A DNA stretch of 64,000 nt. Origin: Paenibacillus silviterrae (GTDB lineage Bacteria; Bacillota; Bacilli; Paenibacillales; NBRC-103111). The DNA is taken from NCBI RefSeq assembly GCF_030167925.1, contig NZ_JASKUT010000001.1, forward strand, positions 3,866,501-3,930,500, in the 5' to 3' direction. The notes beneath the pieces were generated by a model. The model ran no database searches, was not told where the DNA came from, and saw only the letters and a program-made list of their open reading frames with translations. Position 1 is the first letter of the stretch; each line of letters starts with the position of its first letter. Both the position numbers and the translations under genes were made by a program. Shown one piece after another: positions 9,671 to 63,502 of this stretch.

Positions 9671-9710
9671 AAAGAAAAACTGCTCCTAACGTTAGGGTTA
9701 AGAGCAGTTT
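9671..9710 (-). terminator. Terminator of the cold-shock gene
   Basis: 9-bp stem AAACTGCTC / GAGCAGTTT (9677-9685, 9702-9710); the minus-strand U-run follows. Confidence 0.8.
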
Positions 9711-9733
9711 ATCCGTATCGAACTGTGTTCAGC

Positions 9734-9934: not shown

Positions 9935-10070
9935 GTGTTGAACCTCCAACAATTTTTATTAATATGATCCTTTTTTACAAAAAAAATTCACACATTGAAA
10001 AAAGTTCCATTGATGGTAAAATGACACCTTTTTCATTATGTGAATTGGGTTCATATTTATCACTAGAAAC

Positions 10071-10099
10071 ATCGTACCACAGGACAGAAAGAAAAGCAA
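10071..10099 (-). promoter_or_regulatory. Cold-shock gene promoter and long leader
   Basis: Minus strand TTGCTT (10094-10099), 17-bp spacer, TG-G-TACGAT (extended -10, 10071-10076). The predicted leader runs about 130 nt to 9935. Apart from this promoter and leader, and the symporter terminator, I see nothing else in the 9935-10324 gap. Confidence 0.6.
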
Positions 10100-10268
10100 A
10101 TTTCTGCGAGCGGATTTATTGCCCGGAGAACCCCAGGACTGCAGTATCCGCACAACCGGTACAACATTTACCAAAAACGCTTACATGCACCCTATCATAA
10201 GCCATCGTCAGATGCCCGCTCCAGAGGCTGAAGCAGCTTCATCGTACGCGAACAAGGATCAACCAAAT

Positions 10269-10316
10269 GAAAAAAGACGCCCTGCTCCACGGCCTCAATT
10301 CACCGCAGAGCAGAGC
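10269..10316 (-). terminator. Terminator of the SDF symporter
   Basis: 14-bp stem with G-U pairs (10279-10292 with 10303-10316) followed on the minus strand by TCTTTTTT. Confidence 0.75.
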
Positions 10317-10324
10317 GATTCTCC

Positions 10325-11680
10325 TTATGCGCCGGCAAGCTCCAGCTCATCTTCCTCATCCCGATCGAACGAAGCCCGATCAAATTCGCCTTCCGAGTTC
10401 GCTACAACCAGCGCGGTTACGGTAGTGCCCGTTGCGTTCACCGCAGTACGGCCCATATCGATCAACGCCTCGACGCCAAGCACCAGGCCCATTCCTTCCA
10501 GGGGAAGGCCCATGGCCGTCAGCACGACGGTTGTGGAAATCGCCGCGGGCCCAGGGACACCCGCTACACCGATGGAGGAGATCACACTTACGAGCACCAG
10601 CACGATGTAATCGGTAAAATCAAGCGGAATGTTATACACGCGGGCAACGAACACCGCTACGATCGCCGGCCATATGCCGCCGCAGCCGTTGAAGTTCATG
10701 GAAGCTCCCAGCGGCGCTACGAAGCTGGCAATTCTCGGCGATACGCGAAGGCGCTTCGTAATAACCTCCAGATTGACAGGAAGCGTTGCATAGCTGCTTC
10801 GCGTAGTGAACGCAACCGCTACGGTCGGGTAAGCCTTCTTAAAGAACTTGATCGGATTGACCTTAGCCACGAAGGATACCAGTCCGCCAAACACGAATAC
10901 AAAATGAAGTATCAATGCAATGTACGAAGCAATAATAACCTTGGCCAGCGGTGTGAGCGTTTCAAGACCGTACCGGGCAGCCATAGCACCAATCAGTGCG
11001 TACACACCGTATGGTGTCAAGCGAATCACATACTTGACCACCTGATGAAGCACTTCCGTAGCCGATTTCAGCAGCGTCTTCACCGGCTCCACCGCCTCCG
11101 GCTTGCGCGAATTGATATGTACAATCGCGACCGCTACGAAGATGGCGAAGATCAGCACCGGAACCACTTTGCCTCCGGCCATGTCGCCAATCGGATTGGA
11201 CGGCACCAGATCCAGAATAACCTGAGAGAACGTCGGAATTTCTCTGGCTTTAAAATCCTTTGGCACCGCAGCCTGAATCCCGTTCCCCGGGTCGACGGCC
11301 AGCGCGACGAGCAGACCGATAATGGCCGCAACTCCCGTTGTACCCAAAAACCATAAAATCGTCTTCACTCCGAGCTTGCGAAGGTGAGTCATACTTGTTA
11401 ACGACGAGATACTGTTGATTACCAGTACAAAAACCAACGGCATAACCAGCATTTTGATCAAATTGACATAAATCGTCCCGATCGTGCTGACACTTTTGTA
11501 TTCCAGCTTAAATGTGTTAAAAGCGATGCCCGCAAGGAGACCAAGCCCCATTGCGATAAAGACACGCGTACCGAAGCTGACGCGCTTCCGGGCAAGCAAA
11601 ACCAGTATCGCGATGACGGCGATGGAGACCAGCAAGCTGACCCAGTTGGTTTGAAAGGCTGTTAATAAGTTATTCTTCAC
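10325..11680 (-). CDS. Dicarboxylate/amino acid:cation symporter (TcyP-like)
   Basis: About 451 residues, the glutamate-transporter (SDF) fold: eight or so membrane helices, the serine-rich re-entrant loop TTRSSYATLPVNLEV, the substrate-site stretch LGASMNFNGCGG, and a second hairpin VGVPGPAAISTT-like region. The C-terminus is acidic. Wording is nearest to the cystine transporter TcyP and C4-dicarboxylate carriers, so the substrate remains open. GTG 11680 has GGAGG 10 bases upstream; an ATG at 11689 almost touches that site. Monocistronic. Confidence 0.85.
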   Translation of the reverse strand: MKNNLLTAFQTNWVSLLVSIAVIAILVLLARKRVSFGTRVFIAMGLGLLAGIAFNTFKLEYKSVSTIGTIYVNLIKMLVMPLVFVLVINSISSLTSMTHLRKLGVKTILWFLGTTGVAAIIGLLVALAVDPGNGIQAAVPKDFKAREIPTFSQVILDLVPSNPIGDMAGGKVVPVLIFAIFVAVAIVHINSRKPEAVEPVKTLLKSATEVLHQVVKYVIRLTPYGVYALIGAMAARYGLETLTPLAKVIIASYIALILHFVFVFGGLVSFVAKVNPIKFFKKAYPTVAVAFTTRSSYATLPVNLEVITKRLRVSPRIASFVAPLGASMNFNGCGGIWPAIVAVFVARVYNIPLDFTDYIVLVLVSVISSIGVAGVPGPAAISTTVVLTAMGLPLEGMGLVLGVEALIDMGRTAVNATGTTVTALVVANSEGEFDRASFDRDEEDELELAGA

Positions 11681-11794
11681 GGATGTCATTCCTCCCCTTA
11701 AAATCCCATGGTGTTACTCGGATTATTGCTAGAGTAAGGCCTCCCTGCCCACTCTGTCAATACATTTTTATGAAATTGTGAAAATTATATGACA

Positions 11795-14113
11795 TTACTT
11801 CCCACTGATGACAGAAAGTTCTTTTGCAGGCTTCCATTCCTCCGGCAGCAGCTGCCGGTATTTGGCCTGCAGGAAGCGGTCGTCTACCAGCAGCAGCGTC
11901 CCTCTGTCCTCCTCGGTACGAATGAGCCTTCCCCCCGCCTGAAGCACCTTATTCATACCGGGATAGACATAGGCGTAATCAAAGCCGTTTCTTCCCGTCC
12001 GGTCAAAATACTCCTTCATAATCTCCCGCTCCAGCCCGACCTGGGGAAGGCCTACGCCGACAACCACCACTCCCGTAAGCCGGTCGCCCGTAAGATCAAT
12101 GCCTTCGGAGAAGATGCCCCCCATCACGGCAAAGCCGACGGTGGACTGTTCATCGTCCGATTGAAAAGACGCCAGAAACGCTTCCCGCTCCTCCTCGCTC
12201 ATCCCGCTCTGCTGCACCAATATACGGAGCCGCTGCGGCGCATCCGCCTCCATCCATGTCTCCAGCACCTCTCTCAAGTACTCATAGGAGGGGAAGAATA
12301 CCAGCACATTTCCCGAATGCTCCTGCAGCAGCTGATGAAGGGCAGCCGCAATGGTCCCTTTTGTCGCAGCCCGGTCCCGATACCGTGTAGACACAGGCAG
12401 CAGGCGGACATCCAGCTGCTCCTTGCGAAAGGGCGAAGGGATCGACATTACGTAGTCATCCGCCTCTCCTCCTAACATCTCCCGGAAGTAGGGCAGCGGT
12501 GACAGCGTAGCGGAGAAGAACACCTGAGACCGGTAGCCCTTCGTCATCTGCCGCAGCAAGCCGGAAGGATCCAGACACAGCAGCTTCAGACGGACATCGC
12601 TTTTGCCGAGCTCCGCATAGGTGACGTAGGCCTCGCTGTAATAGCCGGCGATACGGAGGAAGCTCTGCGCGGCAAAATAAGTGTCGAGCAGCAGCTGCGC
12701 CGCCTCGCCTCCGCCTGGCTGCATACCGGCCAGCGTCTTCTCGGCCTCAGCCGCGAAGGTTTCCACGTGAGGAAGCAGCGCTTCCGGGCAAGCCTCCTGC
12801 ACGACACTGCGCTGATCGGAGGGGTAGCTTTTGCGCAGCGAGAGGAAGAAGTCATTGACGGCCTTCGCCGCTGCAGCCAGTGACGGCAGACTGCGCTTAT
12901 GCTCGCGGCTCAGCTGCAGGAACGGAGCCTTCGATAGCTCCGCCGAGAACATATCCCGTCCCCGGTCCACTAGGTTATGCGCCTCGTCCACGAGCAGAGC
13001 GGTCTCCCGCTTCTGCTCCTCATACTGCCGCTTCAGCGATACCCGAGGATCGAAGATATAGTTATAGTCACAGATGACGGCATCCGCCAAGTAAGCCGTA
13101 TCGAGCGAGAACTCAAAGGGACACACGCGATGCTTCCTTGCGTACCGCTCGAACACCTCGCGGGTCAGCCGGGTTTCCTGCGTCAACACATCGAGCACCG
13201 CCTCATTAATCCGGTCATAGTAGCCGTCGGCGAACTCGCAGTGCTCCTTCCGGCACCGCAGCTCCTCTTGAAAGCAGATCTTCTCCTTCGCCGTAATCGT
13301 CGCCGACCAAAGATGCAGACCCTGTGAGCTCATCCGCTCTAAGGCTTCCTCGGCAGCCGTCCGGGTGATCGTCTTGGCGGTCAAATAATAAAACCGCTGC
13401 AGCTCGCCCTCCCCGATCGCCTTCACGGCAGGGAACAAGGTCGAGATCGTCTTCCCCGTCCCGGTAGGCGCCTTGGCGAAGAGCCGCTGCCTGTCCGCGA
13501 TCGATTTATACACCGCCCCCGCCAGCTTCCGCTGTCCCTGCCGGTATGCGTCGAAGGGGAAGCGCAGCTCCCTGCAGCTGCTCCCCCGCTCCTCCGCATG
13601 CCGCAGCTGCAGCCTGGCGTAGGGTGCATACCCCGCCGCCAAATGCTGCATGACCGCTTCCAGCTCGGAGAGCGTATACGTCCGCAGATAATGCTTCCGT
13701 TCCTGCGTATCCACCTGCACGTAGGTCAGCCTCACCTGCATCCGCTCCAGCCCTTCCTGCCTGGCATGCATAAACGCATAACACTGCGCTTGGGCCCAGT
13801 GGACAGGATAGCTGTCCTCCTCGATGAAGTCTAATTCGCCTCTGGTTGATTTAATCTCCTCCACGGTGAGCGCCCCATCCAGCAGAAGCAGTCCATCGCA
13901 GCGCCCGTCCATCACGATATGCAGCTCCTCGAAGGAGATGCCCCCTTCCATCGGGACCTCCTTCCGGTCGTGCTCCTCGTAGTCCTGCTGCACCAGCTGA
14001 TGCGCCTTCGTTCCTTCCTGCAGCGTCGTCAGCGTCCGAAACCCGTCGTCAATGCTTCCGCTGCGATACACATATTCCACTAGGGCACGAACCGACACCT
14101 TGACCGTAACCAT
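11795..14113 (-). CDS. Nuclease-XPD/DinG-type DNA helicase fusion
   Basis: About 772 residues. The N-terminal 170 residues look like a RecB/Cas4-type PD-(D/E)xK nuclease (DGRCDGLLL, then VEEIKSTRG). Next comes a superfamily 2 helicase of the XPD/Rad3/DinG type: Walker A KAPTGTGKT (about 214-222), four cysteines (CFQEELRC...CEF...CPFEF) that can hold an Fe-S cluster, DEAH (LLVDEAHNLVD), and C-terminal motifs VFFSATLSP, GIFSEGIDL and QAGGRLIR. A 5'-3' helicase with an associated nuclease in DNA repair is the likely role. ATG 14113 has GGAGG upstream. A LexA-like box and a TATAAT lie just upstream, so SOS induction is likely. Confidence 0.88.
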   Translation of the reverse strand: MVTVKVSVRALVEYVYRSGSIDDGFRTLTTLQEGTKAHQLVQQDYEEHDRKEVPMEGGISFEELHIVMDGRCDGLLLLDGALTVEEIKSTRGELDFIEEDSYPVHWAQAQCYAFMHARQEGLERMQVRLTYVQVDTQERKHYLRTYTLSELEAVMQHLAAGYAPYARLQLRHAEERGSSCRELRFPFDAYRQGQRKLAGAVYKSIADRQRLFAKAPTGTGKTISTLFPAVKAIGEGELQRFYYLTAKTITRTAAEEALERMSSQGLHLWSATITAKEKICFQEELRCRKEHCEFADGYYDRINEAVLDVLTQETRLTREVFERYARKHRVCPFEFSLDTAYLADAVICDYNYIFDPRVSLKRQYEEQKRETALLVDEAHNLVDRGRDMFSAELSKAPFLQLSREHKRSLPSLAAAAKAVNDFFLSLRKSYPSDQRSVVQEACPEALLPHVETFAAEAEKTLAGMQPGGGEAAQLLLDTYFAAQSFLRIAGYYSEAYVTYAELGKSDVRLKLLCLDPSGLLRQMTKGYRSQVFFSATLSPLPYFREMLGGEADDYVMSIPSPFRKEQLDVRLLPVSTRYRDRAATKGTIAAALHQLLQEHSGNVLVFFPSYEYLREVLETWMEADAPQRLRILVQQSGMSEEEREAFLASFQSDDEQSTVGFAVMGGIFSEGIDLTGDRLTGVVVVGVGLPQVGLEREIMKEYFDRTGRNGFDYAYVYPGMNKVLQAGGRLIRTEEDRGTLLLVDDRFLQAKYRQLLPEEWKPAKELSVISGK

Positions 14114-14128
14114 GATCCGCCTCCGATA

Positions 14129-51998: not shown

Positions 51999-52201
51999 AG
52001 CACCGTCCTTTGCTTGTCCGTCTACCTATCTTAGAACTCTTTTCTTGACGAATTCTTCGGGCATCCCATAATATATACTATACAGAATATATTTATTTTA
52101 GAGCATAGTAAACGTTTTCGGGAGTCAGTCCGACATTTTCCGCACCGTCCGAGCTTTTACGAATGAAATTCCTAGTAAGTATAGTTAGAGGAGTGATATT
52201 C

Positions 52202-55200
52202 ATGGACGGCATGCGGCAAATGGTACGGGCTTTTTTTGCTGCCTCATTATTTACAGCAGTAGTGTTAACGGCATTATCCATGTACAGTCAGTCAGTATTA
52301 GCAGCATCATCAAACTGGAGGATGGGCGCTGGGCCAGGAAACCCGACGGCTCTCGGCTTTGATCCGTTCGGAATAGACGTCGATCCGGTCAACCATCACA
52401 TATTCGTAACGGATGTAGCCAATGCTACTGTGAAAATATTCGACTTGGACGGGAATGCTACACCGATGACGTTAACTGCCACAGACGGCTTCACGAATCT
52501 CCTAGCCGTTACATTCGATGGCTTAGGGCATATATATGTAACGGATAAATGGTACCTTTACAGATTTGACGTCACCTTCTCGAGCGGAGCCTACACGTTT
52601 ACCAATATGATCAAGTGGGACGGCAATAGCACCACCCCTTCGGTAGGCGTGCTTAATTACCCTCAGGGAATCGCCATATACGGCAATGATCTGTATGTCG
52701 CGGACACGAATTCCAACCGCGTGCTGAAATTCGATGCGTCCACATTCCATTCAACAAGCAGCCCTGTGGTATGGTCGGGCGATCTGGACCCGGATCCGGC
52801 CGTAGATGCGACACTCGATAAGCCTGTCGGTATAGCCGCGGACAGCTCAGGAGTCTATATCGGCAACAGCTCGAGCACGGGAAAAATTATGAAATTGAAG
52901 ACGGGTGGGGGCACGTTAATCAAAACGGCCTACTTTCCCCGTGGATTCCGCTTGCATTCCGACGGCAATTTATATGTGGCGATGTACGGCAATAATGGAA
53001 GTCTTGTGACCCGGTTCGATTCAAGCTTGAACGAGAGCTCGGTGTACTTTACAGGCAATTCGAACGCCATTGCCTCCGCCCATATCGGGTTCGATCATAT
53101 GGGTGCGATGTATTTAGCCACTTATGCCCAAATGGCTCCATACGATAATGTATATGATACGGTATGGAAGCTTTCACTCGGGTCGCCCGACAATCGATTG
53201 TCCGGGCTGACGGCGAGCGGAATTGCGCTTAGCCCTTCTCCATTTTTGCCCAATACGCAGGATTACACGGCCAGCGCGGCGAGCACCGTCACCTCCACTA
53301 CGGTCACGCCGGTGGTGAGCGACAGCACGGCCAGTGTTACCGTCAAAGGTATGAGCGTACCGAGCGGCAGTGCCTCGTCTCCCATCACACTAAGTAAGGG
53401 CGAGAATACAATTCCAGTTGTCGTTACGGCCTTCAACGGTGCATCACGGACCTACACAATTAAGGTAAACCGAGCACCGAATACCGATGCCACATTAAGC
53501 GGGCTTACGGTTAGCCCCGGGGCACTCAATCAGACGTTCGCTGGAAGTACACTTGCATATACGGCTAACGTCGCGAATAGCGTTACATCGATTGACGTCA
53601 CGCCGACGGTCAATAACAGTAGTGCAACGTTGAAAGTGAACAACGCGACGGCAACGAGCGGCAGCGCATCCACCGTTTCTTCGCTGGCCGTCGGACCGAA
53701 CACGATTACCGTCAGCGTCACTGCCGAGGACGGTACCACATCAAACGAATACACCATCATCGTCACACGGGCACCTTCATCGGTCGCTACACTTGGCTCG
53801 CTCACGGTCAGCCCGGGAGTACTCAACGAAACGTTCGCTTCCGGTACGCTGTCCTATACTTCTAATGTCGCGAACAGCGTCGATTGGATCAGCGTAACGC
53901 CAAGCGTTTCGGACAGTACGGCGACTTTGACGGTTAACGGCGCTTCATCGGTCAGCGGCAGTGTGTACGGTCCTATTCCTCTTGCTGTTGGTGCGAATAC
54001 GATTACGATTGGTGTTACCGCTCAAGATGGCTCAACGACTAAATCGTACTCCATCATCGTCACGCGGGCACCTTCATCGGTTGCTACACTTAGCTCACTC
54101 ACGGTCAGTCCGGGAGTACTCAACGAAACGTTCGCTCCCGGTACGCTGTCCTATACTTCTAATGTCGCGAACAGCGTCGATTGGATCAGCGTAACGCCAA
54201 GCGTTTCGGACAGTACGGCGACTTTGACGGTTAACGGCGCTTCATCAGTCAGCGGCAGCGTGTACGGTCCTATTCCTCTTGCTGTTGGTGCGAATACGAT
54301 TACGATTGGAGTTACCGCTCAAGATGGCTCAACGACTAAATCGTACTCCATCGTCGTCACCCGGGCGCCTTCATCGGTTGCTACACTTAGCTCACTCACA
54401 GTCAGTCCGGGAGTACTCAACGAAACGTTCGCTTCCGGTACGCTGTCCTATACTTCTAATGTCGCGAACAGCGTCGATTGGATCAGCGTAACGCCAAGCG
54501 TTTCGGACAGTACGGCGACTTTGACGGTTAACGGCGCTTCATCGGTCAGCGGCAGTGTGTACGGTCCTATTCCTCTTGCTGTTGGTGCGAATACGATTAC
54601 GATTGGTGTTACCGCTCAAGATGGCTCAACGACTACCGCGTACAGCATCGTCGTCACGAGAGCTCCTTCGTCGGTTGCCACACTTGACTCGCTCACAGTC
54701 AGTCCGGGTGCACTCAACGAGACGTTCACTTCCGGTACGCTATCCTACACGGCAAACGTAGCGAATAGCGTCGCTGAGATCGGCGTAACACCAACCGTTT
54801 CGGACAGTACGGCGACTTTGACGGTTAACGGCACTTCATCGGTCAGCGGGGCGGTGTACGGTCCGATCCCTCTTGCTGTCGGCTCGAATACGATTAAGGT
54901 TGTCGTTACCTCCCAGGACGGCTCCACGACTACCCCGTACAGCATCGTCGTCACAAGAGCACCTTCATCGGCTGCCACACTTGGCGCACTAACGATTAGC
55001 AACGGAAAGCTGAATGAACCGTTCACTTCCGAAACGTTTGTCTATACGGTTACTGTAGAGGACTATGTCTCTTCCATCAGCGTAACGCCGATCGCCGCCG
55101 AGAGCCATGCGACACTCACAATCAATGGTATCCCTGCGGCAACCGGAAGTGCCTCTGGTCCAATAGCGCTCAACGCAGGTTCAAACACCGTTACGGTTAC

Positions 55201-56143
55201 CGTTACCGCTCAGGATGGTATCACGCAGAGGTCTTACCGTCTAGACATTTTTCGGAAGACTATCAACGAATCATCCGAGCCTGCGGAGGTTGATGCGGCA
55301 GACTTAAGCTCGCTTAGCTTGCTGGCCGATGAGAAGACGATCGCCTTGAGCCCGGCATTCAAAAAAGATATACGCTCATATACGGCAGAAACGACCGCTA
55401 AGAAAGTACATCTTACCGCAAAAACACTCTACATGGATGCCCATGTTAGCCTGCAAGGCAACAAGCTGCAAGACGGGGTAACACTTGAATTGCTTCCTGG
55501 AAACAATACCATTGTTCTGCACGTGACACATCCAAGCGGATTGTCGCAAACCTATACCATAACTATTCACCGCTCAACTGCCGAGCAGCCGCCGGTACAG
55601 CCTTCAGGCTTGAACGATATCGCTGGAAATTGGGCGGAAGCAGAAATACGCAAAGCCGTGGCGGAAGGATGGGTTACCGGCTATCCGGATGGCTCGTTTC
55701 GTCCGGAACGTGAAGTGACAAGAGCCGAGTTCGTGCAGCTGTTGGCTAGATCTCTCGGTTGGAAGGAACCAGAACCACGGAATATGCCTGACTATACCGA
55801 CATCGACGACATCGGACTGTGGGCACGGGCGGCAATTTCTATGGCAGTTCAGCAGGGCATTATTAATGGCTATGAGGATGGAAGCTTCCGTCCGGCCCGG
55901 CCGTTGACTCGTGCGGAAATGACCACGTTGATTATCAGAACGCTTGGCATGCCCGTTGAAACGGATCAATCCACCTTATTCGTCGACAATTCCAGCATAC
56001 CCCCATGGTCGCTGCCTTATATCGCAGAAGCGGCTAAACGCGGCCTCGTCAACGGGCTGGAAAATAACCGGTTCGAGCCAAACGGTATAGCAACGCGAGC
56101 CGAAGCCGTCGTCATCCTAACAAGATTGTTGAATCGTAAGTAG
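52202..56143 (+). CDS. Large SLH-domain surface protein with beta-propeller and cadherin-like repeats
   Basis: 1313 residues. Signal peptide (about 1-36); an NHL/SMP-type beta-propeller (about 38-325) with repeated GFDPFGIDVDPVNH-, GIAIYGNDLYVADTNSNRVLKF-type blades; then a row of 99-residue cadherin-like beta-sandwich repeats (PF12733-like, about 326-1019) and one more diverged copy; finally three SLH domains (about 1134-1313: GWVTGYPDGSFRPEREVTRAE, GIINGYEDGSFRPARPLTRAE, GLVNGLENNRFEP). SLH binds pyruvylated cell-wall polymer, so the protein is displayed on the surface, typical of Paenibacillus. ATG 52202 has AGAGGAG 8 bases upstream. Confidence 0.9.
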   Translation: MDGMRQMVRAFFAASLFTAVVLTALSMYSQSVLAASSNWRMGAGPGNPTALGFDPFGIDVDPVNHHIFVTDVANATVKIFDLDGNATPMTLTATDGFTNLLAVTFDGLGHIYVTDKWYLYRFDVTFSSGAYTFTNMIKWDGNSTTPSVGVLNYPQGIAIYGNDLYVADTNSNRVLKFDASTFHSTSSPVVWSGDLDPDPAVDATLDKPVGIAADSSGVYIGNSSSTGKIMKLKTGGGTLIKTAYFPRGFRLHSDGNLYVAMYGNNGSLVTRFDSSLNESSVYFTGNSNAIASAHIGFDHMGAMYLATYAQMAPYDNVYDTVWKLSLGSPDNRLSGLTASGIALSPSPFLPNTQDYTASAASTVTSTTVTPVVSDSTASVTVKGMSVPSGSASSPITLSKGENTIPVVVTAFNGASRTYTIKVNRAPNTDATLSGLTVSPGALNQTFAGSTLAYTANVANSVTSIDVTPTVNNSSATLKVNNATATSGSASTVSSLAVGPNTITVSVTAEDGTTSNEYTIIVTRAPSSVATLGSLTVSPGVLNETFASGTLSYTSNVANSVDWISVTPSVSDSTATLTVNGASSVSGSVYGPIPLAVGANTITIGVTAQDGSTTKSYSIIVTRAPSSVATLSSLTVSPGVLNETFAPGTLSYTSNVANSVDWISVTPSVSDSTATLTVNGASSVSGSVYGPIPLAVGANTITIGVTAQDGSTTKSYSIVVTRAPSSVATLSSLTVSPGVLNETFASGTLSYTSNVANSVDWISVTPSVSDSTATLTVNGASSVSGSVYGPIPLAVGANTITIGVTAQDGSTTTAYSIVVTRAPSSVATLDSLTVSPGALNETFTSGTLSYTANVANSVAEIGVTPTVSDSTATLTVNGTSSVSGAVYGPIPLAVGSNTIKVVVTSQDGSTTTPYSIVVTRAPSSAATLGALTISNGKLNEPFTSETFVYTVTVEDYVSSISVTPIAAESHATLTINGIPAATGSASGPIALNAGSNTVTVTVTAQDGITQRSYRLDIFRKTINESSEPAEVDAADLSSLSLLADEKTIALSPAFKKDIRSYTAETTAKKVHLTAKTLYMDAHVSLQGNKLQDGVTLELLPGNNTIVLHVTHPSGLSQTYTITIHRSTAEQPPVQPSGLNDIAGNWAEAEIRKAVAEGWVTGYPDGSFRPEREVTRAEFVQLLARSLGWKEPEPRNMPDYTDIDDIGLWARAAISMAVQQGIINGYEDGSFRPARPLTRAEMTTLIIRTLGMPVETDQSTLFVDNSSIPPWSLPYIAEAAKRGLVNGLENNRFEPNGIATRAEAVVILTRLLNRK
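53474..55255 (+). repeat. Tandem 297-bp repeats in the SLH protein
   Basis: Repeat boundaries at 53474, 53771, 54068, 54365, 54662 and 54959, all 297 bases apart. Units 53771-54067, 54068-54364 and 54365-54661 are almost identical at DNA level; 54662-54958 is diverged and the outer units more so. Each encodes a 99-residue beta-sandwich repeat. Confidence 0.95.
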
Positions 56144-56228: not shown

Positions 56229-56240
56229 ATGATGGATGCC

Positions 56241-56260
56241 CTACTTGTGATACGGTCACC
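56241..56260. other. Third rlmH-attachment-like sequence (site C)
   Basis: CTACTTGTGATACGGTCACC. It shares the 12-base core TTGTGATACGGT with site B at 59789 and 16 of 19 bases around it. It lies between the SLH terminator and AT-rich accessory genes. Confidence 0.45.
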
Positions 56261-56314
56261 GCGTTTGTCTGCAACGGCGAGTTTTAGGGCCATCTATTCA
56301 TTTTTCAGCATGAA

Positions 56315-56779
56315 TTATTTTTTGTTGGAGATTATGTTGTCCAGAAACCGATCTGCGTCACTGTTAAATTTCCAGCTCACCCCAAACTTGTCGACTAGCA
56401 TTCCAAAGCACGAAGACCACGGCATATTCGATAACGGCATAATGACTTGCCCGCCATGGGACAGCTTAAGAAAGTATTCCTCCAATTTAGCCTTGTCATC
56501 GATAACCAGACTAATCAGAATGTGATTCCCTTTCACCAACTCACCCGTTACCGACTTCATGGAAGGCAAAATATCAGACATCATGATCTTCCCGCCCGCG
56601 AATTCGATCGAAGACTCCATAATCATATTCAACTCATTTTCGGGCAGTGGGTAGCTCGGGTCTTGCGGGATGTCCCCAAACTTTACTTTCTTTACTTCAA
56701 TTGCGCTTAAAGCCTCCGAGTAAAACTCAATCGCTTGTTCGGCAACCCCATCAAAATTCAAATACGCGATAGCAGACAT
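56315..56779 (-). CDS. PhnB/VOC-family protein
   Basis: 154 residues; AYLNFDGVAEQAIEFYSEAL and the C-terminal WSSCFGMLVDKFGVSWKFN mark the PhnB-like VOC fold, related to the protein at 50171-50596. ATG 56779 has AAGGAGG upstream; the frame extends to 56833. It is divergent from a WYL regulator and its promoter is overlapped by the palindrome at 56826-56845. Confidence 0.82.
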   Translation of the reverse strand: MSAIAYLNFDGVAEQAIEFYSEALSAIEVKKVKFGDIPQDPSYPLPENELNMIMESSIEFAGGKIMMSDILPSMKSVTGELVKGNHILISLVIDDKAKLEEYFLKLSHGGQVIMPLSNMPWSSCFGMLVDKFGVSWKFNSDADRFLDNIISNKK

Positions 56780-56809
56780 CAAACAAAACCTCCTTCTTGT
56801 GATACATGT

Positions 56810-56845
56810 AGTATAATGGACAGTAGGTGACATCTTGTTGTCACC
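56810..56845. promoter_or_regulatory. Divergent promoters with WYL-type palindrome
   Basis: Perfect GGTGACA-N6-TGTCACC palindrome (56826-56845). Minus strand: the proximal TGTCA starts 17 nt before TATACT (plus 56810-56815), for the VOC gene. Plus strand: a TATAAT (56812-56817) lies just before the palindrome, for the WYL gene. Confidence 0.72.
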
Positions 56846-56877
56846 ATTCTGAAATCGTGTAAAAAAAGAGGACCTTT

Positions 56878-57789
56878 ATGGACAAAGTGGAGAGACTCAT
56901 TTCGATCATCATGATTTTGCTGAAAAAAGAGGTTGTTTCTACAAAGGAATTCAGTGAATTATTCCATGTATCCAAAAGAACGATCCTTCGCGATATGGAA
57001 ACCTTGAGCTTATCGAACATTCCAATTTACGCTGTCCATGGGGTGAATGGCGGCTACGGCATCATGAATGAATATAAGGTTGATAAACGCCTGTTAAGCA
57101 ACTCCGATTTGGAGAATATATTGACTGCGCTCGGCGGACTGGAACAAATCCTCCTTACGGAAGAAGTGGAACGAACAATAAAAAAAATAGAGGCAATGGT
57201 TAGTCCATTGTCTCTGAATCGTTTCATGCAACTGTCGTTTTACGATTGGGAAGGTCGGTCCGAGATTCTTGAAACCTTAAAGACGTGCCAAGAATCCATC
57301 GTAAAGAAGCAGCTGATTTCGTTTGCTTATACAGATAAAGATGGCGTTGTGACGAATCGAATGATCGAGCCCTATGAGCTGCATTTTAGCGAGTCGAGTT
57401 GGTACTTGAGAGGATTCTGTTTACATCGGCAGGAATATCGTACGTTCAAATTGTCTCGGATCGATCACATTGCTGGGAATGAACGTACGTATCACCCTAG
57501 AGACGATTGGCCAGAACAAGGACATCGAGCAAGCTATACGCCGCAACTCGTCACGATTAAGGCTTTGATTTCGCCTAGTATAAAAGATCAATTCATTGAA
57601 AGGTTTGGTCGGAAGAGTATGGAGGACCATCGTTCTGGTTTATTATTAGCGACCATCCATGTCCCTCAGAACCCTACGGGATTTCAATTTCTGGCCAGCT
57701 TCGGCACTCATCTGAAAGTTATAGAGCCCACAAGCTATGTTGAAGACTTTCGAAATTATCTAAATCGAATGATGGAGAACTATTCTTGA
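56878..57789 (+). CDS. YafY-type HTH-WYL regulator
   Basis: 303 residues; N-terminal HTH_11-type (TKEFSELFHVSKRTILRDMETLSLSNIPIYA), a WYL domain (about 140-215) with LISFAYTDKDGVVTNRMIEPYELHFSESSWYLRGFC and a C-terminal WCX extension. Divergent from a VOC gene and separated by a palindrome. AT-rich relative to core genes. Close kin of the other two WYL regulators in the window by layout. Confidence 0.85.
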   Translation: MDKVERLISIIMILLKKEVVSTKEFSELFHVSKRTILRDMETLSLSNIPIYAVHGVNGGYGIMNEYKVDKRLLSNSDLENILTALGGLEQILLTEEVERTIKKIEAMVSPLSLNRFMQLSFYDWEGRSEILETLKTCQESIVKKQLISFAYTDKDGVVTNRMIEPYELHFSESSWYLRGFCLHRQEYRTFKLSRIDHIAGNERTYHPRDDWPEQGHRASYTPQLVTIKALISPSIKDQFIERFGRKSMEDHRSGLLLATIHVPQNPTGFQFLASFGTHLKVIEPTSYVEDFRNYLNRMMENYS

Positions 57790-57865
57790 TAAGTTCCCCC
57801 TCGGCATATATGGCCGATTTCAGTTCTCGAGGTTGAAAGAGTATTCAGAACTTAGTCAGTGAAGT

Positions 57866-58846
57866 TCAATCGGAATCTTCGTCGTAATGTTTGGCGATTC
57901 CATAGGCCAATTCCTGGATCTGACGCTTCAGCTCCAGCGGCTCCCGAATGCGAATGGCTGTGCCAAACGTCATTAGATACATCGGAAGGTACTTGTTCAT
58001 CGTCGGGACGTCGAGCAGAAACCGCACCTCCCGATCGGTCCGTTCCGTCAAATAGTGGCGCATATGCCAGTGGCGAGAAACCGCGTTCAGCGTGTCGGGC
58101 TCTCCCTCGATGCGGATGACCGTCAGTGGTCCGTCTGCCTCCCGTTCCCGTTTGGACTGGTCACTGAAATAGACGGACGCGGAGAAACGCTCCGGCTTTT
58201 CGAACCATGCTTCAGTCGGCTCCAGCCGCGCGACGCGGTCCACGCGGAATGTCCGAACCGCCTGCGACCGATGGCAGAACGCGACAACGTACCATTCGTT
58301 TCGGTCGTAAGCCAGCCCGTACGGATCAACTTCTCGTTCGTCATCCTGCTCCGCATTCGCTTTGCGATAGGTGATGCGAACCGTTAACCCGTCCTTCGCC
58401 GCCTGCTCCAGGTCACGTAACAGCGGAACGACGGAAGGTAGACGCGACGGAGAAATCACATCCAAGCCATTCGTACGACAGGACAGATCGTGGCGCTGCT
58501 CCTCGTGTAGCCCATTCTCTACCTTCTTAAGCGCGCTTTCCAGCTCCTCTGTATATGGATAACCAGCGCCTTGCGCAAATTTAAACGCATCCAAAAGCGC
58601 CTTCACCTCTACGGAGTTGAAGAACAATGGCGTCTCCTTGAAGCTTTCCAGAATACGAATGCCACCGTCATGGCCCGATTCCGCGACGACTGGCACACCA
58701 CTGGCGCATAATGCATCGATATATCGGTACACGGTGCGAACGCTGATCTCCAAACTGTCCGCGATCTGCGTGGCGGTGAGCTTCCTTCCGGTTCTAAGTA
58801 TCCAAAGCATCGAAAGCATGTTATCCCATTTCGCTATCGGAAGCAC
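57866..58846 (-). CDS. YafY-type HTH-WYL regulator
   Basis: 326 residues; N-terminal HTH (TATQIADSLEISVRTVYRYIDALCASGVPVVAESG), WYL domain (about 150-225) with RITYRKANAEQDD...VDPYGLAYDRNEWYVVAFCHRS, and a WCX extension. It lies downstream of the PfpI gene on the same strand and may be co-transcribed with it. GTG 58846 nearly abuts its ribosome-like GAGG, so the start is uncertain. Confidence 0.83.
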   Translation of the reverse strand: MLPIAKWDNMLSMLWILRTGRKLTATQIADSLEISVRTVYRYIDALCASGVPVVAESGHDGGIRILESFKETPLFFNSVEVKALLDAFKFAQGAGYPYTEELESALKKVENGLHEEQRHDLSCRTNGLDVISPSRLPSVVPLLRDLEQAAKDGLTVRITYRKANAEQDDEREVDPYGLAYDRNEWYVVAFCHRSQAVRTFRVDRVARLEPTEAWFEKPERFSASVYFSDQSKREREADGPLTVIRIEGEPDTLNAVSRHWHMRHYLTERTDREVRFLLDVPTMNKYLPMYLMTFGTAIRIREPLELKRQIQELAYGIAKHYDEDSD

Positions 58847-58983
58847 CCTCTTTTTCTCGGGGAAAATGAAACTGATTTGAGCTTTGCGTAATTATGTGAA
58901 AAATAGATATTACACTCAGGTGAAAAAGGCTCCATAATTCTACTTTCTACTTCTGACAAATCCTCAAGGCTATGCTTATACCT

Positions 58984-59610
58984 TTACTGGATTGAATTCA
59001 TCAACTCATAGAAATTTTTGGGTTCTTGAGACTTATTAAGACTATACCAAGCATCTAATGTTTGTGAAGATAATACGCCCAGAGCTTTCAAGACGTGTAT
59101 AGAAAATTCCAACGGAGCTATTCCAGATGCAGTGATCAATTTTCCATCAGTTACAACAGACTCCATTTGGTAATACTCTTTACCTGTGTAAGTGGGACAG
59201 ATCATTTTAAGGTATTCCAGATCATTGCTTGTATGCGGGCGAGAATTCAGCAATCCTGCCTGGGCAAGTCCCATTGTTGCACCACAAATCGCTGCAACCA
59301 ATATACCTTCCTTTAAACACCTATGAGCGATTTTTAAGATGGGTTGGTGAATGGCTTCTGTCCATGTATCTCCACCGGGTAAAATCAATGCATCTGTGCT
59401 TTCAATGCTGCACTCATCCAGTTTAATGTCAGGCAGTATTTTCAATCCGCCCATTGTAGTTACAGGAGTCTTTTCCATTCCAACGGTGACTATTTGGGAT
59501 GGGGCCAACCCCTTTTTATAATATCTTCCCGAGTTCAGTTCGGCAGTTAAGTAACCTATTTCCCAGTCTGCCATTGTGTCAAACACATAAAGATATACCG
59601 TATTCTTCAT
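58984..59610 (-). CDS. DJ-1/PfpI-family protein
   Basis: About 208 residues; nucleophile elbow VAAICGATMGLA with the reactive Cys, GGDTWTEA, and a conserved Glu in DWEIGYLTAEL near the start. Members are glyoxalase-like or chaperone-like enzymes against reactive carbonyls. ATG 59610 has GGGAG upstream; the frame extends to 59652. AT-rich. Promoter overlapped by the palindrome at 59694-59720. Confidence 0.85.
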   Translation of the reverse strand: MKNTVYLYVFDTMADWEIGYLTAELNSGRYYKKGLAPSQIVTVGMEKTPVTTMGGLKILPDIKLDECSIESTDALILPGGDTWTEAIHQPILKIAHRCLKEGILVAAICGATMGLAQAGLLNSRPHTSNDLEYLKMICPTYTGKEYYQMESVVTDGKLITASGIAPLEFSIHVLKALGVLSSQTLDAWYSLNKSQEPKNFYELMNSIQ

Positions 59611-59681
59611 TTGCAAGTTCTCCCTATTGTACGATTCATCAAGTGATACCAACTATCCATCGGTAATCAATGATTGTCATC

Positions 59682-59720
59682 ATTATAAAACAACTTCACT
59701 GACATCTACTGTCAGTGAAG
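59682..59720. promoter_or_regulatory. PfpI promoter with WYL-type palindrome
   Basis: Perfect 11-bp arms CTTCACTGACA / TGTCAGTGAAG with a five-base centre (59694-59720). On the minus strand the proximal TGTCA starts 17 nt before TATAAT (plus 59682-59687), matching the DinB and VOC promoters. Confidence 0.75.
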
Positions 59721-59788
59721 CTATTAAAGCGCTTAATAAGGGTAGACACTCAAAGAGTTTCGTAAGTTATTTTCAATAAAATTTCGCC

Positions 59789-59809
59789 TTATTTGTGATA
59801 CGGTTCCCC
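59789..59809. repeat. Attachment-site repeat, far end (site B)
   Basis: TTATTTGTGATACGGTTCCCC, 20 of 21 bases identical to the rlmH 3' end at 63023-63043. On the minus strand it still encodes the RlmH C-terminal residues GEPYHK plus stop, a vestige of the duplicated target. Confidence 0.85.
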
Positions 59810-59840
59810 TTATACGCTATTACGGCTAAATTCCTCGAAA

Positions 59841-59875
59841 CGAAAATAAAGCTAAGCATCTTTGCCCTGCTTAGC
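59841..59875 (-). terminator. Terminator of the island operon
   Basis: Perfect 8-bp stem GCTAAGCA / TGCTTAGC (59851-59858 / 59868-59875) with TTTATTTTC on the minus strand. Confidence 0.82.
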
Positions 59876-59890
59876 CTTGTTTCCAAGTTA

Positions 59891-60532
59891 TCAATTAACT
59901 TGTTTAATATATAGTCTTTGCTTTATGCAACCTTCAATTGCCGAGGCGATCTCTTCCATCACAAAAAGAATCCCTTCCTCTAACTTGTAGAATTCTTCAT
60001 CCTTTAACATGGATATATTTTCGCCGTGAGCCACACTATTACGTCTGTGCACCAACGTATCAATGTCTTTTAATTTTTGCCGATCTATTTCCAGATGTAT
60101 TCCTAATTCTTGAAATAACTCATTAAGCACTACGGATTTCAAATTTGATTTTGTATCAATCGTTTCATCATCTAACGATAAAGGTAGCACAAAAACTTCT
60201 TTTATTTTATTAACAAAATCAATTCGGTTATCCAGGGAACTTTTACCTTGTAAACTACTAAACCTTTTCTTTAAAGAATACACTATTAGCTCATCTTTTA
60301 AGGTTATTGCCTTAGCATCAGAACTCTTACAAATATAATCTAAATACTGTGTAAGACAATATTTTACAAATCCCTCAAAATGCGCATATAATAGAACAAT
60401 TAATGCCCTCTGCATAACTTTTTTTTGGTGTTCATGTTTATTTACAGTTCGAAGTATTGATTTTGCTTCGTACAACTCATGCTGTCTCCAAGTAAAATCT
60501 CTTTCCAAAGCAATGAATATTTCGTGATTCAT
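59891..60532 (-). CDS. HEPN-domain protein (MAE_28990/MAE_18760 type)
   Basis: 213 residues, all-helical. An RALIVLLYAHFEGFVKYCLTQY segment (about 42-63) and, near the C-terminus, RRNSVAHG (163-170) supply the R-x4-H motif (R164, H169) that is the RNase active site of HEPN proteins. The wording fits the MAE_28990/MAE_18760 group that appears next to restriction-type systems. Probably a toxin-like RNase kept in check until infection; inferred. ATG overlaps the DUF262 stop by four bases. Confidence 0.78.
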   Translation of the reverse strand: MNHEIFIALERDFTWRQHELYEAKSILRTVNKHEHQKKVMQRALIVLLYAHFEGFVKYCLTQYLDYICKSSDAKAITLKDELIVYSLKKRFSSLQGKSSLDNRIDFVNKIKEVFVLPLSLDDETIDTKSNLKSVVLNELFQELGIHLEIDRQKLKDIDTLVHRRNSVAHGENISMLKDEEFYKLEEGILFVMEEIASAIEGCIKQRLYIKQVN

Positions 60533-61614
60533 AACCCTTCCAACTTTCTTTCAACGTAATCGATTCGTCCGTTTAATTTAGCTGGAGTATTACTACCCGA
60601 TCCTAGATAATCTTTGAAATCCAAATCAGTAAATAGATTCGAAAATACATGACGATATTTTTCTAGTCTACTTTCATCCCATTTTGTCATATCATCATCC
60701 CACGTACCTAGATACTTTTGAATGCTAATTACAAAGGCTTCATACATACTTATAATAAAACGATTCATTATCTTATCGCCTTTACGACTACAAAAAATAG
60801 TATCACCATCAATTTCTTTTAGTAAATTGAAGGTCTTTTCGAATATCTTTTGTTCCTCATCATATTCAAAAGGAAGCTTATTCTCACTTACTTCCCTCAT
60901 GTAATCGGTTAGAAATCCTTCAACATCATGTCTAAACGAGTCACGTTTATTTTTTAAAGCGAAAAACCTAAGTACTAATTCTTGATCATATCTTTTTTGC
61001 AATTTCTCTTCACTAACGGATGAAACACAAGTTTGAAAACTAGCAAATGTTGAGCAAAAAATAATAAACTCACAATACCTTGAGTCAATAATTCTGATGA
61101 TTGCATTTCGAATCTCTTGTGGCTCTAATAATTCCCCACCAGTATTTAAACGTCTAAAAATTTCAAATCTAACTGACGGAGTGCTATTTTTTCTAACTAC
61201 ATTAAGTCTTATTGGGAATCTCTTTAGTTTTAATCTGAGTGATAAAGGTAATTCCTCTACCGTCATCCCATTTAACTCGGGTACTAATTCACAGTCCTCT
61301 AGAGTCAAATATGGTGTTTGTAATCCAAAAAATCTAAGTAATGTGGTAATTCGTTGAAGTCCGTCAATTAGTTCATAGACACCATCATCTCTTTCGATTA
61401 CATAAACGGGTGGAATAGGAAATTCAAGAAGTATAGATTCAATTAGTCTAGATTGTTTATCAGTGGGCCAACGAAACAAACGCTGAAAATCAGGATTTAT
61501 TATTAACTCGTCATCTTGATATATGGATAATAACTCACCCACTGAGATATCAAAGCTAAGTGTACTTACTGAAGTAGCTCGATCCTCAAGAATTGAACTT
61601 AAGTCCTTTGACAA
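60529..61614 (-). CDS. DUF262 (ParB/Srx-like) protein
   Basis: 361 residues; N-terminal DUF262 domain with NPDFQRLFRW (40-49), DGLQRITTLL (84-93) and a following FEIFRRLNTGGELLEPQEIRN block. These are the ParB/sulfiredoxin-like NTPase/nuclease features shared with GmrS-type and other defence proteins. C-terminal part is of unknown fold. TTG start one base after the methyltransferase stop, with GGGAGGG 7 bases upstream. Confidence 0.82.
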   Translation of the reverse strand: MSKDLSSILEDRATSVSTLSFDISVGELLSIYQDDELIINPDFQRLFRWPTDKQSRLIESILLEFPIPPVYVIERDDGVYELIDGLQRITTLLRFFGLQTPYLTLEDCELVPELNGMTVEELPLSLRLKLKRFPIRLNVVRKNSTPSVRFEIFRRLNTGGELLEPQEIRNAIIRIIDSRYCEFIIFCSTFASFQTCVSSVSEEKLQKRYDQELVLRFFALKNKRDSFRHDVEGFLTDYMREVSENKLPFEYDEEQKIFEKTFNLLKEIDGDTIFCSRKGDKIMNRFIISMYEAFVISIQKYLGTWDDDMTKWDESRLEKYRHVFSNLFTDLDFKDYLGSGSNTPAKLNGRIDYVERKLEGL

Positions 61615-61615
61615 A

Positions 61616-62881
61616 TTAAGCCCTCCCTAATTTACTGAAAGCAACCACACTTTCCCGATATCGCCTCTTGTCCTTGTACTTTCTAGCACCTGAATTAAGT
61701 GAAGTTAGGTACGTTGAGATATCCTCAGTATGCATTATATTCGACTCAAAACCAAGATTCTCTAACATTTCTTTTATTATTATGTCTAGAGGAACCTCTT
61801 GCTCTTTATAAAATGAGGATTGTACGACCATTGCACCGTTTCCATTATTACCCATAACCCGAAATATTTCCATCATAGACAAATACAAATCATTAAAGTA
61901 CTTTGCGTACGTTTTATAATAATAAGTACTAGAAGCATGGGAATGATGATTCGAGACATAATCCAAAATTTTGTCGCATGTGTCTGAAATTCCTGTAACA
62001 ACCTCTTTTGATTTGAAATTTCTTACAACGGGAGTACCTAGCATATCCATTCGTAATGTTTGCAGATTAGACTCATCAAATCCTAAAAGCAATAGTTCCA
62101 ACCACGTAGCCTTTAAGTAATCAATCCTTGTAAGATATGGTGGGGAGGTTATTACACAATTAATCGAATCATTCTCTATCGGCAAGGATTTTGAATTAGC
62201 TACAGAAAGTGAGACAGTTTCGTTGGCAAAAATCGAGCTATGTCTAAAATAATTTTCCTGCTCGTCTACCGCAGCCATGAATAAATCACTCGCAGACGAA
62301 GCTGGATGTACGAGCTCATCGGGAGGTTTAATCCAGGTAGGGTTTGACCCTCTTATATGATACGCACTTTTAATGGTCCGAAATAACATGGTAGTATAAA
62401 GCGCGGCTATATTTGATAGCTGATTCCAAGCCATTAAAGAACATTTTTGAAAATCATTTGGATACAAAAAACGCTCGATGGCTCTTTGAATTGCCCTTAT
62501 TTCTCTTACAAAAGGTTCAACGAACCAATCTAAAAGTGGATCATTTACTAAAATAGGATCTTGATCTTTTGCTGAACTTATGATTTCTAAGGAAAGTGAA
62601 CGTAGGGATGTTCGAAAATCTAACGATGTATGTCTTGCCTTTGAGATAACAATCATTACTGGATTTAAATCAAATCCTATTGCCTCAAAACCTTGCCGGT
62701 TTGCAACATATGTTGTCGTTCCTGTTCCGTTCCAAGGATCAATTATTTTGGCATCTTTTTGAGGATTTAAGACTTTTAATACATCCTCAACAAATTCTGT
62801 AGAATACCCCGCATAGTATGGATAAAATATTGGCGTCCTGCTCTTTTTATGAGTGTATAGCTTGGGTGATCGTAACTTCAT
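61616..62881 (-). CDS. DNA methyltransferase (amino-methyltransferase type)
   Basis: About 421 residues. Motif I DPWNGTGTTTY (about 48-58, SAM site) near the N-terminus and the catalytic SPPY (246-249) after it, preceded by CVIT, which is the N6-adenine or N4-cytosine class. The long middle (about 100-240) is a helical region that may recognise the DNA target. ATG 62881 has GGGG about 9 bases upstream; the frame extends to 63004, reaching the att repeat, without a ribosome site. First gene of the operon. Confidence 0.82.
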   Translation of the reverse strand: MKLRSPKLYTHKKSRTPIFYPYYAGYSTEFVEDVLKVLNPQKDAKIIDPWNGTGTTTYVANRQGFEAIGFDLNPVMIVISKARHTSLDFRTSLRSLSLEIISSAKDQDPILVNDPLLDWFVEPFVREIRAIQRAIERFLYPNDFQKCSLMAWNQLSNIAALYTTMLFRTIKSAYHIRGSNPTWIKPPDELVHPASSASDLFMAAVDEQENYFRHSSIFANETVSLSVANSKSLPIENDSINCVITSPPYLTRIDYLKATWLELLLLGFDESNLQTLRMDMLGTPVVRNFKSKEVVTGISDTCDKILDYVSNHHSHASSTYYYKTYAKYFNDLYLSMMEIFRVMGNNGNGAMVVQSSFYKEQEVPLDIIIKEMLENLGFESNIMHTEDISTYLTSLNSGARKYKDKRRYRESVVAFSKLGRA

Positions 62882-62951
62882 AACCTGCAACCCCAGTTCC
62901 CGTTTTATGCAGAAGAAAACATTATCATTACATTCGGCAGTCTTTTTAATT

Positions 62952-62981
62952 ATTATAAGCCAGTCATTTGCTATATACCAA
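62952..62981 (-). promoter_or_regulatory. Promoter of the island operon
   Basis: Minus strand TTGGTA (plus 62976-62981), 18-bp spacer, TATAAT (62952-62957), just inside the island next to rlmH and about 70 bases before the methyltransferase start. Confidence 0.6.
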
Positions 62982-63022
62982 CATAAACTTCCTTGTAGTA
63001 CCATTAATTTTCATTTTATGCA

Positions 63023-63043
63023 TTATTTATGATACGGTTCCCC
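63023..63043. repeat. Attachment-site repeat within rlmH (site A)
   Basis: TTATTTATGATACGGTTCCCC: it is the last codons of rlmH read in reverse (GEPYHK-stop). Staphylococcal SCC attachment sites use the same rlmH codons (core TTATGATACGC). See site B. Confidence 0.82.
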
Positions 63044-63502
63044 CCGCATAATCTTAAACGCCCGGTACACCTGCTCCACCAGCACAAGCCGCATCAGCTG
63101 GTGCGGCAGGGTCATGCGCCCGAACGAGAGCTTCAGCTCGGCTCGGGCGAGCACTTCGGGGGCCAGCCCTAGCGAGCCCCCGATCACGAAAGCCACCTGG
63201 CTTCGCCCATAGGTGGCCAAATCGGCAAGCTGCCGAGCGAGCTCCTCGCTCGATAGCGGCTTGCCGTCAATCGCGAGCGCCACGACGTAGGCGCCCTCGC
63301 GAAGCTGCGCGAGGATGCGCTCGCCCTCGCGCTGACGCACCTGCGCCTCCTCCGCGGCGCTCATGCTCTCCGGTGCCTTCTCATCGGGCACCTCCACAAT
63401 CTGCACCTTGGCATAAGGACCAAGGCGCTTCACATACTCGGCGATCCCCTGAACCAGATACGCCTCCTTCAACTTCCCGACCGAAACGATTTGAATATGC
63501 AT
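63023..63502 (-). CDS. rlmH: 23S rRNA pseudouridine-1915 N3-methyltransferase RlmH
   Basis: 159 residues, the standard length. SPOUT-fold methyltransferase: starts [20 protein letters not shown], contains [14 protein letters not shown] and the knot region [24 protein letters not shown], and ends [16 protein letters not shown]. It modifies helix 69 of 23S rRNA on the assembled ribosome. ATG at 63502 is set by family length. Its 3' end serves as the island's attachment site and remains intact. Confidence 0.97.

Follow-up and report, generated by a model that had tools for sequence, protein, structure and literature searches.

A putative anti-phage operon of methyltransferase, DUF262 and HEPN genes forms one segment of a row behind rlmH in Paenibacillus silviterrae

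Results

The window analysed here, a stretch of 64,000 nucleotides from the 7.44 Mb genome of Paenibacillus silviterrae (assembly GCF_030167925.1, contig NZ_JASKUT010000001.1, positions 3,866,501 to 3,930,500; G000:C1:3866501-3930500), holds three adjacent minus-strand genes encoding a DNA methyltransferase (61616..62881, 421 residues), a DUF262 protein (GmrSD_N, ParB/Srx fold; 60529..61614, 361 residues, TTG start) and a HEPN protein of the MAE_28990 / RiboL-PSP type (59891..60532, 213 residues). An earlier note, made from the sequence alone, had proposed this trio as a candidate defence operon, and the three co-oriented genes lie as it described, with a gap of 1 base between the methyltransferase and DUF262 genes and an overlap of 4 bases between the DUF262 and HEPN genes. 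The longest open reading frame (ORF) of the methyltransferase reaches 63004, and its homologues favour the ATG at 62881. The single promoter that had been proposed is weak, since the best promoter-like site upstream of the trio (62981-62952) is matched at 10/12 positions but such sites number 21 against 13.4 expected. As to the terminator, a stable hairpin lies 3' of the HEPN gene on the minus strand (59830..59895, -20.4 kcal/mol, z -4.24, none of 200 shuffles equally stable). With a loop of 9 bases it falls outside the consensus terminator scan, which allows at most 8 and gave a single match, inside the methylase gene.

The methyltransferase matched PF01555 (1.2e-7, exceeding the Pfam cut-off of the family) and the PADLOC model MTase_II (2.1e-33), and a sequence search of solved structures returned mainly generic methyltransferases. 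It carries motif I (DPWNGTGTTT) and a catalytic SPPY that is kept in 26/26 methylase homologues, and by sequence it is assigned to the N6/N4 amino-methylase type. The DUF262 protein matched PF03235 (GmrSD_N) in Pfam at 2.4e-26 and, in PADLOC, NsnA best (1.1e-62; a name not traced in the literature searched), PD-T4-2_A at 9e-37 and, weakly, the type II restriction endonuclease model REase_II (1.9e-10). It carries the motif NPDFQR and the nucleoside triphosphate (NTP) pocket motif DGLQR, of which D84, G85, Q87 and R88 are present in 73/73 homologues and L86 in 71/73. Its predicted model (pLDDT 91) had as best Foldseek matches ParB (5k5a, 1.1e-3) and BrxU (7p9k, 1.2e-3), none below 0.001 and with low TM-scores of 0.28-0.30 over the whole model, and a sequence search against solved structures found DUF262 proteins at 5e-5 to 8e-4. 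The earlier note had taken this protein for a nuclease, a claim that the analysis did not bear out: no DUF1524/HNH domain was found in it by Pfam at 0.01, in the 361-residue model or by Foldseek. No protein of the trio matched the DUF1524 HNH family in Pfam at 0.01 or a restriction endonuclease nuclease domain, and the trio fills its whole segment. The HEPN protein is the sole recognisable nuclease of the trio.

The HEPN protein matched PF18737 (2.4e-33) and PF18735 (3.1e-30) in Pfam, and its predicted model is mostly helical (pLDDT 93). R164 and H169 of its R164-x4-H169 motif are present in 67/73 and 68/73 homologues; the exceptions are four rows gapped at both sites, L078 (V164 and a gap at 169) and L103 (C164). 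The invariant positions of alignment A5, which omits 10/73 rows including L078 and L103, both without R164, are R16, Y49, E53, N130, R164 and H169. Judged from these sequence features, the protein is a probable RNase effector. The motifs of all three proteins had been named in the earlier note, and SPPY, DGLQR, R164 and H169 are the ones whose conservation in homologues could be added. A sequence search of solved structures with the HEPN protein returned coiled-coil matches only, which were chance-like. The PADLOC output held no model for a second PD-T4-2 gene, and the partners in the pairs of E. coli, Klebsiella and a P2-like phage were likewise unmatched.

Directly upstream of the operon lies rlmH (orfX; 63023..63502, minus strand, 159 residues, PF02590 at 2.4e-58; the ORF listed to 63646 includes an upstream extension), whose homologues in 24/24 congeners are 69-93% identical. 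The final codons and stop of rlmH, GGGGAACCGTATCATAAATAA, are repeated at 59789-59809. We distinguish three attachment-type sites on the minus strand: site 1 (63020..63043), formed by the rlmH 3' end, its stop and 3 further bases, at the right edge of the segment with the trio; site 2 (59786..59809), where the rlmH 3' end is repeated, bounding this segment on the left and the next one on the right; and site 3 (56238..56261), diverged outside the core, at the left edge of the second segment. They are spaced by 3,234 and 3,548 bases, and site 2 has 0 mismatches to the degenerate rlmH-end pattern, with 0.00 matches expected in shuffles. The trio occupies exactly one segment of about 3.2 kb, first in the row behind rlmH. 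This cassette A (59810..63022, minus strand, GC 0.34) consists of the trio and the hairpin, and cassette B (56262..59785) encodes a VOC-family protein, two WYL regulators and a DJ-1/PfpI protein. Neither cassette matched the large serine recombinase queries, and an autonomous element with a recombinase of its own was therefore rejected for both. The direct rlmH 3'-end repeats that bound the trio segment were unmentioned in the earlier note. Just outside site 3 ends a 1,326-residue ORF (52163-56143) whose end, judged by eye, resembles an SLH-repeat surface protein.

The 15-base site core has four exact matches in the 7.4 Mb genome, three of them at this locus. The fourth, on contig C2 (G000:C2:1807784-1807801), is the end of a short stretch of 39 bases that resembles the rlmH tail (87%); it stands at the head of a second copy of the DJ-1/PfpI gene and of one WYL gene, and the trio is absent there. 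This copy is 96% identical over 1,970 columns to 57849-59810 of the window; towards the trio the homology extends no further than site 2, and its other end lies inside cassette B.

The association of the genes was surveyed in the best 80 of 569 confirmed DUF262 relatives (from 590 pattern matches) in genome contigs. HEPN lies directly downstream of DUF262 in 72 of these 80 loci, with a HEPN match somewhere in the locus in 76, and directly follows DUF262 in 76/80 loci from viral contigs. Of the 80 loci, 26 have a methylase as the gene directly upstream (25 plus L060, where the ORFs overlap); L085 has one 2 kb upstream, and L071 has a methylase and DUF262 with no HEPN match. The 25 rows labelled as having a methylase cover nine phyla. 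On a tree of 73 DUF262 proteins, in which L060 was labelled as lacking it, the methylase label required 6 changes against about 21.6 in shuffles, so the methylase is mostly inherited together with DUF262, with a few gains or losses. DUF262-HEPN is the constant unit and the methylase an optional third gene. The earlier note had asked whether the three genes are rarely neighbours elsewhere; this does not apply to the pair and applies in part to the methylase. No rlmH was found in the fetched flanks of the 80 loci.

PF18737 occurs in 9/398 genomes of the class, and DUF262 precedes HEPN in the other 8/8. Among 72,556 plasmid records HEPN was found in 8, and DUF262 adjoins it in 5/5 regions fetched (in L030 the DUF262 gene is unannotated and the adjacency spans the record start). 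In two of these five regions a different restriction-modification (R-M) system lies near the pair, some pairs are only a few genes away from genes for replication or mobilisation, and one plasmid is mobilisable and of 5.7 kb. Phage carriage of the trio HEPN was rejected, with 0 matches in 50,697 phage records; a DUF262 relative was found in 19 phage records, and viral contigs hold DUF262-HEPN pairs. In the P2-like phage P24B2 (L265:140-2015), a HEPN-like ORF (RNDLAH) comes after a DUF262 gene close to one end of the record.

Within the family, the HEPN gene was matched in 3/104 genomes: that of the window, G046, a member of another genus (86%), and, remotely, G077 (29%). The trio of G046 also lies behind rlmH, third in a row, between rlmH-end copies (L004 sites 1006, 8425, 10553 and 13032). 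Among the loci examined, the rlmH-cassette form of the trio was seen in these two genomes only. The two trios are 81-84% identical in DNA, and this homology reaches the site on the rlmH side and goes no further. In G046 the methylase has lost its end and DUF262 its start through a deletion of about 0.75 kb, the HEPN ORF remaining open. The first G046 segment encodes a 556-residue large serine recombinase (NCBIfam CcrB 5.6e-121 and CcrC 2.1e-106, both below the curated cut-offs). Also observed in the G046 segments (L004:1280-8998) were a 495-residue protein with no NCBIfam match, an ORF with a DPPY motif and, at L004 8363-8998, a fragment of a second Ccr-like recombinase. G066, G067 and G077 have Ccr-like genes as well, 36-45% identical to that of G046 and located 0.2-7 kb behind rlmH; the one in G067 contains an internal stop.

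rlmH is present in 25/25 genomes of the genus, and up to 15 kb behind it were examined in 20/24 congeners (all except G064, G068, G073 and G075), the regions L247, L250 and L253 ending at contig ends. Outside the window, ORFs and gene starts were called mechanically. Searching with at most 2 mismatches and counting rlmH's own end, we found rows of sites in the same direction in L244 (9), L255 (6), L249 (5) and L258, L260 and L261 (4 each), against 2 reverse-strand matches and 2 in the reversed-sequence control over 22 loci. Three two-mismatch sites (L248, L257 and L251) were dropped by eye as spurious and six others kept, which gave 35 extra sites in 12/20 congener regions. Adding 2 sites in the genome of the window and 3 in G046 yields 40 bounded segments, 55-9,597 bp long, in which ORFs of at least 100 residues run 76 along and 31 against the rlmH direction by crude ORF calls. 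Large serine recombinases were matched in 3/40 segments (segments 1 and 2 of G046, the latter a fragment, and segment 3 of L255) and not in the other 37, tyrosine integrases not being sought.

Homology ends were judged by comparing whole rows rather than segments alone. Segment 5 of L244 and segment 1 of L248 are 96.0% identical over 3,779 columns, from site to site in both rows, so that one cassette is fifth in the row of G083 and first in that of G084, next to different neighbours. Clean boundaries are seen at both ends of this cassette, at the rlmH side of the trio and at one side of the contig C2 copy of cassette B. In L256, stretches of the L244/L248 cassette lie directly behind rlmH, with no far site detected. 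Four congeners (L226, L228, L229 and L230) have a second, partial RlmH match outside the main rlmH locus.

An exact search for the 18-base degenerate site gave 377 matches in the 104 family genomes against 1 for the reversed-pattern control, the consensus having been derived from the same family as the genomes counted. The site is present in 96/104 genomes, at least twice in 77 and at least four times in 41, at most one site per genome being rlmH's own end. Among the matches listed, 53 pairs of neighbouring sites within 25 kb are co-oriented and 1 is not. Of 199 other genomes of the class, 7 (counted by eye) have at least 4 sites, the control giving 2 there. A chance origin of the rlmH-end repeats was ruled out by these counts and by the shuffles of the window.

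The L244 row, with nine sites within 14.5 kb (816-14126), contains GGDEF, DEAD helicase, HD, LysR and SDR genes. Pfam searches of 10 + 8 cassette ORFs left 4 with no match and gave, among others, GGDEF, DEAD helicase, HD, LysR, SDR, Fic, endonuclease IV-like, D12 methylase, AAA_15/21 ATPase and polysaccharide deacetylase domains, along with a single serine recombinase. This excludes the rows as stores of defence genes only. PADLOC was run on 79 ORFs of at least 120 residues from cassettes in the congener rows, the window and G046 being excluded; among the matches listed (best 25 of 104 families at 1e-10) were PD-Lambda-5 A (5e-104) and B (3e-115), PDC-S71 (2e-201), SoFic (2e-41) and AriA (2e-22), the helicase, ATPase and methylase models being too general to count as defence.

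Discussion

We propose, at a probability of roughly 0.6, that the trio defends against phage as a PD-T4-2-like system, a DUF262 sensor with a HEPN effector, to which a methyltransferase has been added, and that it is packed as one recombinase-less cassette of the staphylococcal cassette chromosome (SCC) type, first in the row behind rlmH. Judged by homology (NsnA, PD-T4-2_A, PF18737 and PF18735), a defence role as such is highly likely, and here the proposal of the earlier note is supported, its mobile-cassette context having been missed. PD-T4-2 (Vassallo et al. 2022) likewise encodes DUF262 and PF18735 HEPN proteins (table in PMC10952713); according to the accessible text of PMC9519451, its deletion in ECOR65 increases T4 plaquing and it protects K-12. 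In contrast to PD-T4-2, the window operon adds a DNA methylase and its DUF262 protein is better fitted by the NsnA model, the likeness being judged by PADLOC and Pfam profiles rather than by the original PD-T4-2 sequence. The exact trio, which the earlier note did not name as a characterised system, had in fact been listed in 2013: Table 1 of Anantharaman et al. (PMC3710099) gives MAE_28990 HEPN as 'In operon with a ParB nuclease and DNA methylase genes', the same three gene kinds, predicted from gene neighbourhoods. As far as the accessible part of that paper goes, this is a table line without mechanism or mobile context, to which gene order and residues are added here. Since the trio has been published as an operon prediction and its two-gene core has been studied by experiment, the window operon is a variant and not a new kind.

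The mechanism would differ from that of related systems in its output. GmrSD, BrxU and SspE share with the window protein the DUF262 domain and a DGxQR-type motif, and BrxU is among its best fold matches, but they join DUF262 to DUF1524, whereas here no DUF1524/HNH is detected and the HEPN protein is a separate effector. In the accessible text of PMC10952713, the DUF262 part of SspE hydrolyses NTPs and, upon sensing DNA modification, activates the nuclease part, and BrxU and Eco94GmrSD are promoted by NTPs. By analogy, the HEPN RNase would take the place of the DUF1524 nuclease, so that the sensing of foreign DNA would end in RNA cutting. In such a scheme the methyltransferase might mark host DNA, for which we see even odds. 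The DUF262 protein, we think with slight preference, would sense incoming DNA of the wrong modification state or structure and change shape on NTP use, as GmrSD, BrxU and SspE suggest. It would then, somewhat more probably, switch on the HEPN RNase, which would cut RNA and stop phage growth, probably with host arrest. Integration and excision of the cassette at the rlmH 3' end would likely be catalysed by a Ccr-type large serine recombinase supplied in trans; the site structure is observed, and the recombinase is suggested by the neighbouring Ccr-like genes. The HEPN ORF of G046, open despite the lost DUF262 start, fits a protein that would be harmless until switched on, and argues from sequence that HEPN is idle without DUF262, provided that it is expressed in G046.

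Several observations weigh against this proposal. The accessible text of PMC9519451 does not state abortive infection as the mode of PD-T4-2. Foldseek gave no HEPN match below E 0.001 for the HEPN model, solved HEPN domains appearing only at E 0.4-0.65, and PADLOC gave no family for this protein at E 0.01 (RTasHEPN at 0.02). No methylase homologue lies directly upstream in 46/72 DUF262-HEPN pairs, of which 43 are testable, L067, L069 and L089 being cut by a contig end within 260 bases. On a Roseomonas mucosa plasmid (L031:3557-4857) the methylase is split into two overlapping ORFs, with DUF262 and HEPN open. An obligatory methylase is ruled out by the 46 pairs, and its methylation is not a general self-signal; where present, the methylase may tune self-recognition. 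As regards the cassette, no relative of the G046 recombinase above 28% identity was found in the genome of the window, the far-side homology with G046 ends at 59889, about 80 bases before site 2, and a 2.3 kb block shared by L249 and L255, broken parts of which are found in L246, overruns a site by about 310 bases.

The relation between the genes could also be read in other ways. By analogy with PrrC, the HEPN protein might be a back-up toxin silenced by a complex of DUF262 and methylase and freed when a phage disables that complex, as was proposed for R-M-linked HEPN genes (PMC3710099, accessible part) and as the pairs near complete R-M systems on two plasmids would suggest. We consider this unlikely, since a silencing partner should forbid the open HEPN ORF that G046 retains despite the loss of the DUF262 start and methylase end, if HEPN is still expressed there, and most pairs have no methylase homologue directly upstream. 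The G046 remnant also speaks against a toxin-antitoxin or addiction module, in which HEPN would be the toxin and DUF262 the antitoxin, the pair would stabilise plasmids and cassettes, and phage defence would be secondary. The location of pairs on plasmids, some near replication or mobilisation genes and one on the small mobilisable plasmid, would fit such a module, which we nevertheless hold to be quite unlikely: PD-T4-2 was found by defence selection and defends natively, according to the accessible text of PMC9519451, and DUF262, in which D-G-x-Q-R is invariant, is better conserved than HEPN, a pattern untypical of an antitoxin. Ordinary restriction-modification, with DUF262 itself a DNase (or a sensor with an unseen DNase) cutting unmarked DNA and HEPN an accessory, is very unlikely in our judgement; the upstream methylase in 26 of the best 80 loci, the weak REase_II match and the L071 locus accord with it, but no nuclease domain was found in DUF262, and HEPN is far more constant than the methylase. 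The trio shares the DNA methylase with type II R-M systems, yet its cassette holds no recognisable restriction endonuclease.

For the repeats, the alternative is that they are leftovers of segmental duplication or gene conversion and not recombination sites. The absence of a recombinase from the window cassettes, and its presence in only 3/40 segments, would suit this explanation, as would the longer rlmH-like tail at the contig C2 repeat of the same genome and the L249/L255 homology that crosses a site. Against it, the sites of a row point in the same direction, 377 sites occur in the family genomes against 1 in the control, a whole site-bounded cassette stands at different positions in L244 and L248, the second copy of cassette B stops at a site, and Ccr-like genes lie near rlmH in G046, G066, G067 and G077. 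The block of L249, L255 and L246 led us to lower our confidence in the recombinase step and in an integron-like reading of the rows and to raise that in duplication, which even so is highly improbable.

In keeping with the proposed SCC-type cassette, the present rows share with SCC elements the insertion at the rlmH 3' end and direct repeats of the last codons at both ends, and with their composites the tandem arrangement, Ccr-type large serine recombinases and R-M cargo; in contrast to them, no ccr gene lies inside cassette A or B, the CcrB/C-like gene being in the first G046 segment. The rlmH island of Paenibacillus pinistramenti is a composite, and staphylococcal composites are cited in the same paper (PMC10061031, accessible part). 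Enterococcus cassette chromosome (ECC) elements of 21-78 kb carry ccrAB, with multiple attR sites in 16/32 (PMC6222049, accessible part), whereas the segments described here measure 55-9,597 bp, 37/40 lack a large serine recombinase match and one row packs nine sites into 14.5 kb. No title in the literature searched, subscription papers being outside its scope, dealt with long rows of small recombinase-less cassettes at rlmH. The likeness to integrons lies in rows of small cassettes behind one site, with mostly co-directional genes and a cargo that varies by strain; unlike in integrons, each site repeats the rlmH 3' end and the nearby recombinases are large serine enzymes, attC and IntI not being sought. 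The row that holds the trio was probably built, integron-like, by Ccr-type recombinases.

More tentatively, and at slightly less than even odds, the rlmH 3' end could be, across this family, an integron-like gene-capture platform that uses Ccr-type large serine recombinases instead of an integron integrase. Small, mostly recombinase-less cassettes, each ending in a copy of the rlmH tail, would be stacked there head to tail. They would pass from species to species, change their order and provide a store of genes against phage and for other functions, the trio being one such cassette and probably the newest arrival in this genome. The trio ties a little-studied pair of DUF262 sensor and HEPN RNase to an experimentally proven anti-phage relative, and the methylase as an add-on makes the question of self and non-self testable by comparing trio and pair. 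Integrons are known as stores of phage-defence genes. The rlmH rows may represent a second way, besides integrons, to stack and trade single-operon cassettes, including defence genes, at one chromosomal site.

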